Positions 13,888-59,919 of a DNA stretch of 64,000 nucleotides are shown here, one piece after another. Position 1 is the stretch's first letter. Every line of letters starts with the position of its first letter. The stretch comes from Beijerinckiaceae bacterium (GTDB lineage Bacteria; Pseudomonadota; Alphaproteobacteria; Rhizobiales; Beijerinckiaceae), in assembly GCA_024304885.1 (NCBI GenBank), contig JALJOM010000003.1, positions 902,110 through 966,109 of the forward strand. Reading direction: 5' to 3'. A model generated the notes under the pieces. The model was not told the origin of the DNA, ran no database searches, and worked only from the letters and a program-made list of their open reading frames with translations. A program made the translations under genes and the position numbers.

Positions 13888-14507
13888 GTCCCGTTCCGCG
13901 CTCGATTGAAGCCGACGCGCCGGTCGATCGTCAATGATGGTCGCTCGGTCACGATATTGCTGCCTGCTCCGGCCGGCAAGGTCGAGCGAAACTCGGCAGG
14001 GCCTCGGATCGAGCTTCGCGCTCGGCCACGCGTGGAATTCGGCTTGCGTTAGAGCAATTTCCAGCGAAGCGGATATTGCTTGGCGTCGTGAAATCGCGAC
14101 AAACCAAGGACGTAGAGCCGGTTTCCGATTCAGCCGGATCGAAAACTCGCTCGCTCGTGAAAATAGCCCAGTGCTCGACTGCCAACACAGCTGGTCGGCA
14201 CGTTATTGGGCACCTCACCGCCAAAATCTATCGCAATAGCAATCGCGGCCGAGATCGGAGCTGATCGCTCGCAGAGAAGCGCTCGAAGGTCTGGGTCTTC
14301 GAGATCATCGAGCAGGGGTCCCATAACTGCTCACCCTGGTTCTGTCCGGCGAAGCCGGGTGGAATAGCCGGCGGAGTGGAGGTAGAGCTGGCGATCCTGT
14401 GGCCACGCGCTTTGGATGTCGACTCGGACCTGACAATCGGCGCTCGAGGTGCCATATTGAGAGCGATCGACCCCAGCCGAAGCTTTCGGACCCGCTCGGA
14501 GGCGCCT
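13888..14507. other. Long intergenic stretch with one repeat copy
   Basis: This 620-bp gap separates proA from the A-type carrier gene; proA's promoter must lie at its left end. It holds the module C repeat at 14051-14154. Apart from that, no convincing gene, RNA or terminator was seen; the reading frames here show no recognisable domain. Confidence 0.6.
14051..14154 (+). repeat. Dispersed repeat, module C (short form)
   Basis: Starts AGAGCAATTTCCAGCGAAG, has GGCGTCGTGAAATCGCGAC in the middle and the palindrome-like TTTCCGATTCAGCCGGATCG towards the end, matching the other C copies. Confidence 0.85.
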
Positions 14508-52146: not shown

Positions 52147-52254
52147 GCACCCCATCGAGCCAGCGGTGTCGGGCGCCCCCTCTCGATCACATTTTTGTTC
52201 CGACACCCTCGTGGAGCTCGGCGCGCACGCGCGGCGGAGATCAAATAAGGAGGG

Positions 52255-52292
52255 CTTATGTAGTAGATAAGAACAAACGATTTCAGTTATTT
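52255..52292 (+). promoter_or_regulatory. 38-bp LysR-type element upstream of pmoC
   Basis: CTTAT-N7-ATAAG (T-N11-A, LTTR box geometry) is followed directly by ACAAACGATTTC-A-GTTA. The same 38-bp layout, without gaps, is at 54293-54330. It lies 92-129 bp before the pmoC ATG. AGGAGGGC precedes it, probably by chance. Confidence 0.75.
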
Positions 52293-52383
52293 TGCAGCCT
52301 CGCATAGCCTCTGCGGTGCCCTTGCGGCAAAGCGCGAAGCTCTCCGAGCTTCACGAGCCTTCAACGCAACAACGAGGCACACA

Positions 52384-53205
52384 ATGAGCCTAGTCACCGA
52401 AACAGCAGGCGCGGGCGCCCTCGAGGCCTCCGCCGCCAAGCCGATCTTCGACTGGAAGCCCTCTGTCTTCTTCGCCGTGGCGATCTGCGTCTACTACGTG
52501 ATCGTCCGCATCTACGAGCAGTACTACGGCTGGTATGCTGGGCTCGACTCGTTCGATCCCAAGTTCAACCAGTACTGGATGACGATCCTGTGGACCGAGC
52601 TGCCGCTCGAGGCCATCTGCTTCCTCGCCCTCTGCGGCTATCTGTGGAAGACCCGCGACAAGGACCTCGCCAACGTCGCTCCCCGCGAGGAGCTGCGCCG
52701 GCTCTTCTATCTCCTCGGCTGGATTGTCGTCTACGGCGTGGCGATCTACTGGGGTGCCAGCTACTTCACCGAACAGGACGGCACCTGGCACCAGACCGTC
52801 ATCCGTGACAACGACTTCACGCCGAGCCACATCATCGAGTTCTACATGAGCTACCCGATGTACATCGTCGTGGGCGTCGGCGGCTTCATGTTCGCTCGGA
52901 CCCGTCTCCCGATCTTCGCCTTGAAGGGCTACTCGATCTCCTACCTGCTGCTCTTCATCGGCCCGTTCATGATCTTCCCGAACGTCGCGCTCAACGAGTG
53001 GGGCCACACGTTCTGGTTCATGGAAGAGCTGTTCGTCGCGCCGCTGCACTGGATGTTCGTGTTCTTCGGCTGGTTCGCGCTCTCGGTGTTCGGCGTGTCG
53101 CTGCAGATCCTCGGCCGGATAGGCGAGCTCTACAAGGGCCACGAGGACCTCTGCGGACTCGAGCCGACCACCGGCCCGATTCCGGCAGTCGTGGCTGCGC
53201 GGTAA
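52384..53205 (+). CDS. pmoC: Particulate methane monooxygenase subunit C (lone copy)
   Basis: A 273-aa PmoC, a membrane protein with six or so helices, part of pMMO, which oxidises methane to methanol in intracytoplasmic membranes. Family stretches include YYGWYAGLDSFDPKF, WTELPLEAICF, VIRDNDFTPSHIIEFYMSY (with conserved Asp and His of the PmoC metal region) and LNEWGHTFWFMEELFVAPLH. No pmoA or pmoB follows: the next gene is a reversed lysR. Single pmoC copies are known in methanotrophs and at least some are needed for growth. ATG after GAGG. Confidence 0.97.
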   Translation: MSLVTETAGAGALEASAAKPIFDWKPSVFFAVAICVYYVIVRIYEQYYGWYAGLDSFDPKFNQYWMTILWTELPLEAICFLALCGYLWKTRDKDLANVAPREELRRLFYLLGWIVVYGVAIYWGASYFTEQDGTWHQTVIRDNDFTPSHIIEFYMSYPMYIVVGVGGFMFARTRLPIFALKGYSISYLLLFIGPFMIFPNVALNEWGHTFWFMEELFVAPLHWMFVFFGWFALSVFGVSLQILGRIGELYKGHEDLCGLEPTTGPIPAVVAAR

Positions 53206-53291
53206 TCGGTTCGAGACAGTGATGATGACGACTCTCGGAATGACGACCAACTGAAGCCCGCTCCACTGATCCGGCGCCGAGCAATCGGAAA

Positions 53292-54212
53292 TTATGTCCG
53301 GGGAGCACTCCCACGATCTTGCTCCGCGAGGGTTCGGGGCAACCGCGATGACGGTGTCCACGGATGGCTGTCGGCGAACCGCGCCAAATCGTGCAGATAG
53401 TCATCGTTGCGATCCGCGAGCCATCTGAGGGCGATCGTGCGCTTGACTTCGAAGTCCGCCACCGGAACCTGGGTAACGCCGGGTACTTCGAAATGGGCAG
53501 GTGTAAACGCGATTCCGATTCCGGCTGCGACCAGCGCGAAGGCTCGATCGTCTTGATCGGTACGATACACGACGCGAATCCGAACCCCATGCCGGTCGAG
53601 CGCCTCGGTCACGTTCCGATAGCATTCGCATCTGGTCCTCAAGACGAAAGGCTCGTTGTCGAGCTCGACGAGACTGACCGACTGTCGGAGCGCGAAGCGA
53701 TGACGGCTCGGGACCGCGAGCACGTAAGGCTCTTCGAAGAGAACGCGAGTCACGAGCTTGGTAGAGTCGTTATCCGAAATCGTCAGGATCGCATCGAGCT
53801 GTCCATCGGCCAGCAAGTCGAGCAATTGGCCGCAAGGACCGTCGAAGACCTCTATCGTCACATGAGGATAGGATCGCCGAAACGAGGCGAGGAGCTCGGA
53901 AACCTGTCCGCTCGAGAGCGACAGAAGGACGCCCAATCTCAAGATGTCCGGCCCCGTCAGCGCTCTGAGCTCGGCCTTCACCGAATTGCCGAGAAGCAAC
54001 ATGGTTTTACCGATTTCGAGAAGACGCACCCCGGCCAGCGTCGGAACGACCGATGAACGCCGCCGATCCAACAGCCTGACGCCGATCTCGGCCTCGAGCT
54101 TTGCGATGCTCGCCGAGATCGCAGGTTGTGAAACGGCTTCGCGTTGGGCGCCTTTCGTGAAGCTGCCGGTCTCCACGACTGCAACGAAATGCCTGATCTG
54201 ATGGAACTCCAT
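53292..54212 (-). CDS. LysR-family regulator, copy 1 (next to pmoC)
   Basis: A 306-aa LTTR. The wHTH is at residues 1-60 (IRHFVAVVETGSFTKGAQRE, AVSQPAISASIAKLEAEIG), then a linker helix and a periplasmic-binding-like effector domain. ATG 54212. The N-terminal 40 residues are nearly identical to copy 2 (55266-56129), suggesting duplication and shared DNA targets. It converges on pmoC and is divergent from the bitopic protein gene at 54576, with a LysR-type box in between. Confidence 0.95.
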   Translation of the reverse strand: MEFHQIRHFVAVVETGSFTKGAQREAVSQPAISASIAKLEAEIGVRLLDRRRSSVVPTLAGVRLLEIGKTMLLLGNSVKAELRALTGPDILRLGVLLSLSSGQVSELLASFRRSYPHVTIEVFDGPCGQLLDLLADGQLDAILTISDNDSTKLVTRVLFEEPYVLAVPSRHRFALRQSVSLVELDNEPFVLRTRCECYRNVTEALDRHGVRIRVVYRTDQDDRAFALVAAGIGIAFTPAHFEVPGVTQVPVADFEVKRTIALRWLADRNDDYLHDLARFADSHPWTPSSRLPRTLAEQDRGSAPRT

Positions 54213-54292
54213 CTATAAGCGATGCCATGAACCGGCGGAGCCGAGAAAGGTTCTCGTGATGGATGCGACGCCTGCGGATCGAATAACCGGAA

Positions 54293-54330
54293 TTTATGCA
54301 TGCTATAAGCACAAACGATTTCGGTTACTT
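54293..54330 (+). promoter_or_regulatory. 38-bp LysR-type element between lysR and the bitopic protein gene
   Basis: TTTAT-N7-ATAAG followed by ACAAACGATTTC-G-GTTA, matching the pmoC element at 52255-52292 at most positions with no gaps and in the same orientation. It is 81 bp before the lysR start and about 246 bp before GTG 54576, the classic autoregulatory position for an LTTR. Confidence 0.75.
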
Positions 54331-54575
54331 GGTGTGATCGTCTAGGTTCCGCGATACTCGAACGGCAAATCACGAAATCCCCCGGGCATGGAACCGAACA
54401 AAACGTCACATCGTGTCACGACGGCAAGACGAGAATGCTGGCATGCCACGGTCCGGCTCGCGCCGCCGCTCGGCAGAGATCGAGTTCTCGGCTCGGTTCA
54501 TGCTCCGCAAATCGTGAAAGACCCGGGCAGAATCGTGCGATAATCGAGAGCGAGCCAATCGAGGAGGATCGAAGC

Positions 54576-55220
54576 GTGAGTATTCGAGCTTGGGGCGTGG
54601 TCGTCCTGGCCGTCGTGCTCATCGCGATCGCCTATGTGACCACGGTGGTTCCGCGGCCGGTGACCCATGGTCATCACGCCTCGGCGTCCGACCGGGAGAA
54701 GTGCGTCGCCCGCATCGGACCGAGCTTCGTGCAGTTCAGCGTCTATCAACCCGGGGAGCCGCGGGCCCGCTATTGCAAGGACATTCCGGAGGTCGGCCCG
54801 GCCACGATCGTCATCGATCAAGGCGATACGGAATTGCGCGAGATGACGACCGACGTCCGAATCATCCGGGAAGTCGGCGGGGGCCCGGAGCTGGCGCAAT
54901 TGGCCGATGATGCCGTGGTGGCGTCCGAGGTGCTCGACCCGTTCACCGAGAAGCATGTTGCGCCCGAGCGCTACCCTACGGGAATTATCGAGTTCGCGCA
55001 TCGGTTCACGAGCCCGGGCCTCTACCATGCGATGGTCACGGCCAGGAACGATCACGGTCAGGTCTTCGTGTCCGAGTTCCCGTTCCGCGTCGGGCAATCC
55101 GGCCGCACGACGGTCCTCCTCTGGGGTGGCGTGGCCTTGGCCTTCATCGCCGCCGCCATGGCGCTCGCCTGGAAATATGCAGATCTCGCGAGACTCTGGT
55201 CGCATCGCGGACACGGGTGA
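54576..55220 (+). CDS. Periplasmic protein with N- and C-terminal membrane helices, possible PmoD-like
   Basis: A 214-aa protein. GTG 54576 follows GAGGAGGA. An N-terminal helix or signal (GVVVLAVVLIAIAYVTTVV) leads to a periplasmic domain with GHHASASDREKC and a second cysteine (RARYC) 24 residues after the first, then an Ig/YtkA-like strand region (GLYHAMVTARNDHGQVFVS). A C-terminal helix (TTVLLWGGVALAFIAAAMAL) closes it. PmoD proteins, encoded with pmoCAB, bind copper in such an exported, C-anchored domain. The PmoD assignment is inference from topology and position only. Confidence 0.6.
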   Translation: MSIRAWGVVVLAVVLIAIAYVTTVVPRPVTHGHHASASDREKCVARIGPSFVQFSVYQPGEPRARYCKDIPEVGPATIVIDQGDTELREMTTDVRIIREVGGGPELAQLADDAVVASEVLDPFTEKHVAPERYPTGIIEFAHRFTSPGLYHAMVTARNDHGQVFVSEFPFRVGQSGRTTVLLWGGVALAFIAAAMALAWKYADLARLWSHRGHG

Positions 55221-55265: not shown

Positions 55266-56129
55266 TCACGGCGTCCAGCCGTGGGCCTCGGCGAAGGTGA
55301 TGAACTCTCCGAGGTCCCCGACTTCGCTGTCGGTCGACCACAAGAGACCGTAGCGTCGGACGATGCTCAAGCCCGTGACCGGAACGAGCTTCACGGCAGT
55401 GGTCTCGAACCGGGCGGGAACCAAGGCGAGACCCACCCCGGCGGCGACCAGCGCGAGCGCCCTGTCGAACTGGTCGGTTTGATAGACGACGTGGATCCTG
55501 ATTCCCGCCGCGACGAGCGCGTTGGCGCCCTCCTGGAAGCGGTCGGTTCCGGTCCTCACGATAAAGGCTTCGTCGTGAAGATCGGCGAGCTCGACCGAGG
55601 GCTGCCGCGCGAGGCGGTGACCCTCGGGAACCGCCAAGGAATAGGGTTCCTCGAAGAGAACCCGGCTCGCGAACCTCGCGGTATCGCCGTCGATGATCGT
55701 AAGCACCGTGTCGAGGCGTCGATCGGCGAGCAACTCGTTCAGCTGCTCGCTTGATCCGTCCATGACCTCGATCTCCACATGTGGATTGGCGTGCCGGAAC
55801 GCGCCGAGAAGCTTCGACACCCGGCGGCTCGAGAGCGATTGCAAGATGCCGATCCGCAGGAGCTCCGGCGCGCTCAAAGCTTTGAGCTCGGCCTTGATTC
55901 TATTCGCAGTCGAAAGCATGGCCTTGGCCGCATCGTGAAGCCGTTGGCCGGCAGGAGTGGGCACGACCGAGGTTCGACGGCGCTCAAGCAGCTTGACCTC
56001 GAGCTCGGCCTCGAGCTTCGCGATGCTCGCCGAGATCGCCGGTTGCGACACGGCCTCGCGTTGGGCGCCTTTCGTGAAGCTCCCCGTTTCCACGACCGCG
56101 ACGAAATGCCTGAGCTGGTAGAGTTCCAT
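55266..56129 (-). CDS. LysR-family regulator, copy 2
   Basis: A 287-aa LTTR with the same DNA-binding region as copy 1 (LRHFVAVVETGSFTKGAQRE). The effector domain is clearly related (LLRIGILQSLSSRRVSKLL; ALALVAAGVGLALVPARFE) but diverged. ATG 56129 begins homology, though the frame runs upstream to 56471. No copy of the 38-bp element was found before this gene. It is convergent with the bitopic protein gene. Confidence 0.94.
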   Translation of the reverse strand: MELYQLRHFVAVVETGSFTKGAQREAVSQPAISASIAKLEAELEVKLLERRRTSVVPTPAGQRLHDAAKAMLSTANRIKAELKALSAPELLRIGILQSLSSRRVSKLLGAFRHANPHVEIEVMDGSSEQLNELLADRRLDTVLTIIDGDTARFASRVLFEEPYSLAVPEGHRLARQPSVELADLHDEAFIVRTGTDRFQEGANALVAAGIRIHVVYQTDQFDRALALVAAGVGLALVPARFETTAVKLVPVTGLSIVRRYGLLWSTDSEVGDLGEFITFAEAHGWTP

Positions 56130-56337: not shown

Positions 56338-56547
56338 GAGGAAAAGCGTACTGCGGTTTTCCGCCCGCACCACGCGCTAAGGTTTTGAATTCGATCACAT
56401 TTCACGACTTTGGATCGATTCGATCCAAAGTCGTCGTGATCTAGTGCAATTTCCAGCGAAGTGGATACCACTTCGCGTCGCGAAATTGCGATAAAACAAG
56501 AGTGTAGAGCGGGTTTCCGATTCAGCCGGATCGGAAACCAGCTCTAG
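56338..56547. repeat. Composite dispersed repeat, modules A(short)+B+C
   Basis: Short A (56338-56378) with GCGGTTTTCCGCCCGCA; B (about 56391-56442) with GACTTTGGATCGATTCGATC and its mirror; short C (56443-56547) ending GGAAACCAGCTCTAG. Same module order as at 4983-5268. Confidence 0.88.
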
Positions 56548-56720: not shown

Positions 56721-56881
56721 GCCGCTTATTTTCTCCGATCGGTTCGATGAAATCAGCTCGAGGCAAGGAAGCAATGGCAAAGGACGCAGATGTACCGAAC
56801 CGCCTGGCCGGGCCCGCATCCGAGAGCACGGGACGAGGCAGGAAAGGGTGAGCGCGACGCCACATGAAAGGACGAGCACGG

Positions 56882-57439
56882 ATGAGCACGCACGAAAGCT
56901 GTAGGACGGACGAACGGCAACGGGCCATGCTCACGACGCCGCGGTGCGATCGACCGTCCGGGTACTCCGAGCACGTGGCCGAGGTGCGGCCGGCCTATCT
57001 CGAAGCCTTGACATTGGTCGAGCGGCTGCATCGCCGCCTCCTCGACGTCATCAAGGACGAGTTCGACCGGCGCGGACGCAGCGACGTGAACGCGATCCAA
57101 GCCCTGCTCCTCTACAATATCGCCGACAAGGAGCTGACCGCCGGTGAGCTGCGCACGCGTGGTTACTACCTCGGCTCGAACGTCTCCTACAATGTGAAGA
57201 AGCTCGTCGAGACCGGCTATCTTCATCATGCCCGCTCGCGGGTCGACCGGCGTGCCGTGCGGATCAGCCTGACCGAGAAGGGCCACGACGTCCACAATCT
57301 CGTTGCCGGCCTCTACGACAAGCATGTCGCCACCGTCGAGCAGATCGGCGGGATCTCCTGCGACGAATTCACGAGGCTCAACCAGTCCCTCGCTCGGCTC
57401 GAGAGGTTCTGGACCGACCAGATTCGTTTCAGGCTCTGA
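56882..57439 (+). CDS. ldtR: MarR-family regulator LdtR
   Basis: A 185-aa MarR-type winged-helix protein. The core is YLEALTLVERLHRRLLDVIK, ALLLYNIADKELTAGELRTR, GSNVSYNVKKLVETGYLHHA and RSRVDRRAVRISLTEKG. This matches LdtR of Liberibacter and rhizobia, which controls L,D-transpeptidase expression and stress tolerance. ATG 56882 is used; a later ATG at 56927 is possible. The transpeptidase gene lies downstream on the same strand, as in those bacteria. Confidence 0.9.
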   Translation: MSTHESCRTDERQRAMLTTPRCDRPSGYSEHVAEVRPAYLEALTLVERLHRRLLDVIKDEFDRRGRSDVNAIQALLLYNIADKELTAGELRTRGYYLGSNVSYNVKKLVETGYLHHARSRVDRRAVRISLTEKGHDVHNLVAGLYDKHVATVEQIGGISCDEFTRLNQSLARLERFWTDQIRFRL

Positions 57440-59570: not shown

Positions 59571-59919
59571 CTAGATCACGATGACTTTGGATCGAACCGA
59601 TCCAAAGTCATCGTGATCGATTCCTAAAGTTTAGAGCGGGATAGGCAGATAAGTTTACGCAGTCTGCGTAAACTCGATTGCGCCGGAAAACCGGTGTCCA
59701 CTTTTCCTCATCCCGCTCTAGAGCAATTTCCAACGAAGTGGACGCCGCTTCGCACATTCGATCTCGATGTTGCGCGAGACCCTTCTCCGAGCGTTTTTGG
59801 CCCGAAGGGGAGAAAGAAAAGCGCGAAGGGACGCGGAAGCCTACGAGGGCGAGGGTAGATCGACATCGATGCGAAATTGCGACACGAAGTTGTTGCCGCT
59901 TCGCTGGAAGTCGTTCTAG
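59571..59919. repeat. Composite dispersed repeat, modules B+A+C(long)
   Basis: B (59574-59618) is a 45-bp palindrome with 21-bp arms. A (59633-59719, reversed) has the GTTTACGCA/TGCGTAAAC hairpin at 59653-59673. Long C (59720-59919) has a nested block matching 33863-34061. The closing CTA (59916-59918) is the complement of the stop codon of the next gene. Confidence 0.9.

Follow-up and report, generated by a model that had tools for sequence, protein, structure and literature searches.

A predicted LysR-type operator-promoter shared by a stand-alone pmoC and a neighbouring pmoD homologue in the Methylocapsa group

Background

LysR-type regulators act from a T-N11-A site near position -65 and a second site near -35 of their target promoters (PMC5603801). 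By sequence, the closest solved relatives of the LysR proteins described in this work are BenM and CatM (95 bits to BenM over query residues 1-243). The sites of NodD, the nod boxes, are of the ATC-N9-GAT type.

Besides complete pmoCAB operons, methanotrophs carry orphan or monocistronic pmoC genes (PMC9145241, PMC3794950, PMC3615186), whose role has been described as unknown (PMC3615186, PMC3794950). Some of the monocistronic copies of Methylocystis lie beside ftsH (PMC3794950). The lone pmoC2 of Methylosinus trichosporium is expressed at a low level, and a regulatory or sensing role has been suggested for it (PMC3615186); in Methylocystis bryophila one monocistronic pmoC is raised at ambient oxygen (PMC12319191). 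The pmoD product of the operons has a Cx7MxH motif, the family also holds members with other motifs, and some pmoD genes are located near a lone pmoC (PMC6189053). The Methylocapsa group, to which the present locus belongs, stands close to the soil bacteria that oxidise atmospheric methane (PMC10672854).

The pmoC gene studied here resembles the orphan copies in standing alone besides a complete operon elsewhere in the genome. It differs from them in its linkage to lysR and pmoD genes; the available parts of PMC9145241, PMC3794950 and PMC3615186 name no LysR neighbour. The open-access literature searched, as far as its text was accessible, assigns no LysR regulator to pmo genes.

Results and discussion

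Genes and promoter features of the locus

The window, i.e. the whole stretch of 64,000 nucleotides that was analysed, comes from a genome of eight contigs and 3,818,827 bases (3.8 Mb). The features discussed below are the following.

52245..52259, plus strand: box 1 of the pmoC promoter, ATAAGGAGGGCTTAT (AT-N11-AT, ATAAG-N5-CTTAT), proposed LysR recognition site at about -65
52267..52281, plus strand: box 2 of the pmoC promoter, ATAAGAACAAACGAT (AT-N11-AT), proposed activation site at about -43
52282..52287, plus strand: weak -35 of pmoC, TTCAGT, 17 bp ahead of the -10
52305..52310, plus strand: -10 of pmoC, TAGCCT, with the predicted transcription start at about 52317
52384..53205, plus strand: stand-alone pmoC (AmoC/PmoC, PF04896, 347 bits)
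53292..54212, minus strand: lysR copy 1, member of the pmo-linked LysR clade
54283..54297, plus strand: box 1 of the pmoD promoter, ATAACCGGAATTTAT
54305..54319, plus strand: box 2 of the pmoD promoter, ATAAGCACAAACGAT
54320..54325, plus strand: weak -35 of pmoD, TTCGGT
54343..54348, plus strand: -10 of pmoD, TAGGTT, with the predicted start at about 54355
54576..55220, plus strand: pmoD homologue (bitopic protein gene), matching PmoD 6cpd at E 1.3e-13
55266..56129, minus strand: lysR copy 2, of the same LysR clade and 57% identical to copy 1

The stand-alone pmoC scores above the cut-off of the AmoC profile, and its frame is intact and free of stops. It had been described in a first-pass annotation as the only pmo gene, a description that has to be abandoned because the bitopic protein gene is a pmoD homologue and two further pmoC genes exist in the genome, one of them at the head of a pmoCABD operon. 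The element described below is absent before both of these other copies, the operon head included.

At its default threshold Pfam gives no match for the protein encoded at 54576-55220 (a PKD match appears at E 0.017), which is 41% identical to the PmoD of the genome's own operon. It resembles PmoD, the copper protein of methane and ammonia oxidisers, in its match to the periplasmic domain, in two invariant cysteines (C43 and C67, constant across 10 aligned sequences) and in a C-terminal hydrophobic stretch, seen by eye. Unlike the described PmoD it has Phe and Gln in place of the Met and His of Cx7MxH, and the described CuA ligand set is therefore incomplete. In the operon PmoD of the same genome, Thr replaces the Met of this motif. 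A second, diverged PmoD-like gene (L007:4499-4888, at about 94.5 kb of contig C3 of the same genome; 31% identity over 148 residues) directly precedes the pmoCABD operon and is encoded on the other strand.

Two copies of the element in one genome

The 38-bp segments 52255-52292 and 54293-54330, which the first-pass annotation had paired, indeed align without gaps and are identical at 29 of 38 bases; the former lies 92-129 bp ahead of the pmoC start at 52384, the latter 81 bp ahead of lysR copy 1 (start at 54212, minus strand). The similarity extends beyond these limits, 42 of 66 positions being identical between 52245-52310 and 54283-54348. Both elements have one orientation and read towards pmoC and pmoD; the second of them has lysR copy 1 at its back. 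The second site, at first regarded as mainly a lysR site, is thus better described as the promoter of pmoD, and with the bitopic gene being a pmoD homologue, both elements precede pmo genes and point in their direction.

The element is rare. A 29-bp core with up to 3 mismatches matched exactly twice in the 3,818,827 bases of the genome (reversed-pattern control, 0), and a 34-bp form with up to 3 mismatches matched twice in the window, compared with a mean of 0.00 in shuffled sequence. A looser 18-bp pattern (up to 2 mismatches) gave one additional place in the genome, C3:138498, which is at chance level because the control also gave one. As no more than two sites appear within 3 mismatches, the idea of a wide regulon here was rejected.

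Two copies 2 kb apart in one genome might be alike merely through a recent local duplication, without having any function. This is extremely improbable: the flanks of the two elements are identical at just 17 of 60 positions on the left (28 of 60 on the right), and the element is conserved in relatives, where the contact positions are kept more than the filler between them (see below).

Anatomy of the conserved unit

The 18-bp pattern, which covers box 2 only, was run on 99 genomes. It matched 24 places in 18 of them, against 17 for the reversed control, and from these only the 8 places ahead of pmoC or pmoD were taken as the test set. ATAA precedes box 2 by exactly 22 bp in all 8 test sites, and no other offset accounts for more than 1 of the 8. 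A complete AT-N11-AT is found at -22 from box 2 in 7 of the 8 (best other offset, 1), and TA-N3-T follows TTTY at exactly 20 bp in 7 of the 8 (best other offset, 1). From the positions common to the 8 test sites, the conserved unit is therefore about 66 bp long and consists, in this order, of AT-N11-AT, 7 bp, a second AT-N11-AT ending in AACGAT, TTY, 20 bp and TA-N3-T. The two boxes are thereby 22 bp apart, or 21 bp in some relatives.

Box 1 of the window's pmoC, ATAAG-N5-CTTAT, is a true inverted repeat. AT is present at both ends of box 1 in 17 of 18 collected sites, a number that includes an unsure 3-mismatch match at the end of G006:C238 and some sites found with patterns containing this very feature. 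The TTAT-N7-ATAA motif, originally proposed as the T-N11-A box, was rejected as the element: it is in the wrong phase, running from the second half of box 1 into the first half of box 2, and its own first half, TTAT, is found in only 4 of the 18 sites.

If transcription starts 7 bp past the -10, as assumed here, the centres of box 1 and box 2 lie at -65 and -43 in both window promoters, so that each has a T-N11-A box near -65 of its predicted start, where a LysR regulon should have one. In this layout, with the AT-N11-AT centred at -65, a second box near -35, nearby targets and regulators composed of HTH_1 and LysR_substrate domains, the system resembles LysR-type activators such as BenM and CatM. 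It differs from them in that the second box is conserved in sequence (AACGAT) and in that the targets are pmoC and pmoD. The AT-N11-AT spacing also recalls the nod boxes of NodD, and ATC-N9-GAT itself occurs in box 1 of three sites of relatives (before pmoC in G007, before a DUF938 gene in G004 and at the contig end in G006). The genes are different here, and this is a resemblance only.

A LysR protein bound to these sites might repress the promoters or bind mainly to control its own gene. An element located behind a divergent lysR, as the second element is, 81 bp from copy 1, is a common arrangement for self-control of LysR genes. On the other hand, the weak -35 and the placement of the boxes at -65 and -43 suit activation, and both elements read towards pmoC and pmoD; repression, or binding mainly for self-control, appears unlikely, though it deserves more weight than any of the other alternatives considered here.

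Conservation and linkage in the genus

Whether the element is kept before orthologous pmoC and lysR genes, one of the two checks on which the first-pass proposal was to stand or fall, was determined in 15 genomes of the genus (Methylocapsa group). PF04896 gave 27 matches in 9 of these genomes; 21 were scored, the other six, fragments or cut pieces, being left out. The element was found at all 9 scored pmoC genes with a LysR neighbour, which belongs to the clade described below, and at 2 of the 12 without one (Fisher p 2.2e-4, to be taken as a description and not as a strict probability since the loci share ancestry). This also gives the second feature expected of a LysR regulon, targets near the regulator gene with conserved linkage. 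Counts of collected sites are likewise not independent, the sites being related by descent.

At the nine linked genes a gap of 90-115 bp separates the end of the element from the point where the pmoC match begins. The gene order varies among pmoC-pmoD-lysR, lysR-pmoC-pmoD, pmoC-lysR, pmoC-lysR-lysR and the interleaved order of the window. Six of the nine sites have the 22-bp form, with 0-4 mismatches on the 22 specified bases. The remaining three have the 21-bp form: they show 7-8 mismatches out of 22 on the ungapped 22-bp motif and were recognised by inspection, and in the genome-wide 21-bp scan, the pattern of which was written after they had been seen, they have 0-2 mismatches out of 19. 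Scanning the whole regions for both forms gave an identical split; every linked region had a single element except the window, which had two. In the four regions in which pmoD directly follows a LysR-linked pmoC, the single element is ahead of pmoC; in the window, where lysR copy 1 lies between the two genes, pmoD has its own element.

The two unlinked pmoC genes preceded by an element are the head of a pmoCABD operon in G013, a 77%-complete draft, and a pmoC of G005 that is cut by a contig end. The cultured species M. palsarum and M. aurea each have a pmoC-lysR pair with the element. In Methylocapsa aurea the end of a contig carrying the element and the 5' part of pmoC shares a 348-bp overlap (99.4%) with the beginning of a pmoCABD contig, but another contig also begins in the 3' end of a pmoC, followed by pmoD, so that either may be its continuation.

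Outside the genus, five genomes belonging to two other genera of the family contributed 20 pmoC regions, part of more than 150 listed pmoC places. None of the 20 showed the element (limits of 4/22 mismatches for the 22-bp form and 3/19 for the 21-bp form) or a match to the LysR proteins of the window at E 1e-4. The possibility that the element is a general mark of pmoC promoters was rejected on these grounds. An exact-pattern scan of the contigs of the wider genome set gave 17 loci. Three are in Methylocapsa; two of them precede pmoC (tblastn), and the third is on the contig of the G013 pmoCABD site. The other 14 loci, without any match to the pmo or LysR queries, were taken as chance.

The LysR regulators

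Both LysR proteins of the window match PF00126 and PF03466 (HTH_1 and LysR_substrate) far above the cut-off. Relatives were sought in 397 genomes of the family, drawn evenly from a larger group, with the copy 2 protein as query (E 1e-55). The search yielded 17 proteins in nine genomes of the genus and two distant ones (43-45% identity) outside it; up to 6 LysR candidates per genome were scored, so that clade members outside the genus could be missed. The 17 proteins group in a single clade (100/100). Their recognition helix hardly varies, and their mean identity is 79% in the DNA-binding columns compared with 62% beyond column 90.

No clade LysR was found (E 1e-40, all candidates scored) in five near-complete genomes of the genus that lack pmoC. 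G004 has a clade LysR and no pmoC match, and the G013 draft has pmoC and no clade LysR at E 1e-40. An element is present in the region surrounding 14 of the 17 clade genes, if the 4-mismatch site of G012 is counted. None was found in the DNA around the other three, which are in G005, on G006:C443 (a 3.7-kb contig) and on G007:C148 (a 4.5-kb contig). The G005 gene adjoins an aminotransferase gene. Beside the clade LysR of G007:C148 there is an open frame (L204:2347-4032) that by eye resembles a cation/proton antiporter, with a PmoD C-terminal stretch at its end; it looks like a pmoD remnant.

Five of the LysR proteins (one in G004, three copies in G007, one in G011) have GADR instead of GAQR in the helix-turn-helix, and all four elements found in these genomes are of the 21-bp form with TCAAACGAT. 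This pairing, which was noticed afterwards and rests on few genomes, hints that protein and site may have changed together. Counter-examples are G006 and one pmoC of G012, which combine 21-bp sites with GAQR proteins.

A different regulator, for instance the LdtR-type MarR protein encoded at 56864-57439, about 2.5 kb away, might be considered as the binding protein. The T-N11-A box is a hallmark of LysR and not of MarR proteins; we regard binding by such a protein as highly implausible.

Proposed regulation

Taken together, the two elements are very probably the operator-promoters of a small LysR regulon, with the stand-alone pmoC and the neighbouring pmoD as targets. A LysR regulon for the stand-alone pmoC, as put forward in the first-pass annotation, is supported by the conservation of the element, the geometry and position of its boxes and its restriction to genomes with one LysR clade. 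Binding by LysR is inferred from conservation, geometry, linkage and the clade, and the bound protein would most likely activate on meeting a ligand. Against the regulon stand the pmoCABD operon of G013, which has an element in a draft without clade LysR, as well as the three clade genes without an element and the 4 mismatches of the carbonic anhydrase site of G012 (see below). The 21-bp spacing of three of the nine linked sites, the clade LysR of G004 in a genome with no pmoC match and the absence of the element from the other two pmoC copies of the window's genome also weigh on that side.

In the proposed mechanism, a LysR tetramer would occupy both boxes, centred at about -65 and -43. The promoter would be of the sigma-70 class and combine a weak -35 with a TA-N3-T type -10. 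When ligand-bound, the tetramer would recruit polymerase to pmoC and, in the window, also to pmoD through the second element. Of the two adjacent LysR paralogues, the DNA-binding domains of which are much alike, one or both could be the regulator. The purpose would be to provide an alternative PmoC and a PmoD partner for methane monooxygenase under particular conditions.

In kind the system is a LysR regulon, and its novelty lies in the targets. The stand-alone pmoC gains a candidate regulator, a predicted operator, a predicted start site and a small list of targets, and the pmoC-lysR pair with its element is available in the two cultured species named above. The identity of the ligand would reveal which condition calls for the extra PmoC and PmoD.

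Other targets of the element

A 62-bp pattern with 22 specified bases (up to 3 mismatches) gave 10 matches in the 15 genomes of the genus and 0 with the reversed control: eight before pmoC, one before the pmoD of the window and one before a beta-carbonic anhydrase gene (PF00484) in G001, where a clade LysR lies 2.1 kb beyond the gene end. Between these two genes there is an insertion-sequence-like gene with HTH domains (L199:7317-8440), which we take to be of the IS630 type; it may explain why the clade LysR of G001 looks unlinked. In G012 a beta-carbonic anhydrase gene and another clade LysR gene point away from each other, and the DNA separating them holds an element with 4 mismatches. Altogether, 11 carbonic anhydrase copies were found in 9 of the 15 genomes, and 2 of the 11 have the element. 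A possible degenerate element (4/19 mismatches, with TAGGAT at the right distance) was also seen at the beta-carbonic anhydrase gene of the window's own genome (G000:C3:2257048-2257620, L233); this look-alike was left uncounted.

The 21-bp pattern gave 9 matches (control, 1). The loci gained in this way were an Ldi-like gene (PF18566), present in both G004 and G006, and a DUF938-SDR-lysR cluster of G004. Matches in G008 and G009, genomes without pmoC and without clade LysR, were taken as chance. In G006 (L231:1452-4694, contig C238) the linalool dehydratase/isomerase-like gene is followed by a radical SAM gene and has the 21-bp element in front; in G004 the Ldi-like gene is partly present.

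These loci bear on another alternative, namely that the unit is a plain constitutive or alternative-sigma promoter in which the AAACGATTT core serves as an extended -35, the LysR genes being passengers that happen to lie nearby. The core does abut the -35 position, its spacing to the -10 is fixed and one operon has the element without a nearby LysR. However, the gap of 20 between core and -10 is long for a sigma-70 -35 located at the core, and the two AT-N11-AT boxes at about -65 and -43 have the layout of LysR sites and reach past the usual sigma contacts. Moreover, element and clade LysR also occur together at carbonic anhydrase genes in two genomes (one site with 4 mismatches) and at the DUF938-SDR cluster in one. 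A plain promoter is accordingly improbable.

Under the LysR regulon, the additional targets allow a more tentative suggestion. A dedicated LysR switch, seen among the searched genomes in Methylocapsa-type methanotrophs alone, might exchange or supplement PmoC, together with a non-canonical PmoD, in response to a small molecule reporting carbon status. This reading, which we consider possible but well short of an even prospect, is suggested by the element and clade LysR at beta-carbonic anhydrase in two relatives and by the element before the Ldi-like enzyme in two others. If it is true, our searches indicate that no ligand-responsive transcription factor has been assigned to pmo genes before.

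A dispersed repeat in the window

Apart from the elements, the window contains a palindromic repeat with the core ATTTCCAGCGAAGTGGA, present in 7 copies at up to 2 mismatches compared with 0.01 expected. It is located at 56406-56481 and 59571-59753, and also at 14057, 17894, 17996, 23022 and 34035. At two places it is accompanied by a hairpin of the GACTTTGGATCGA type.
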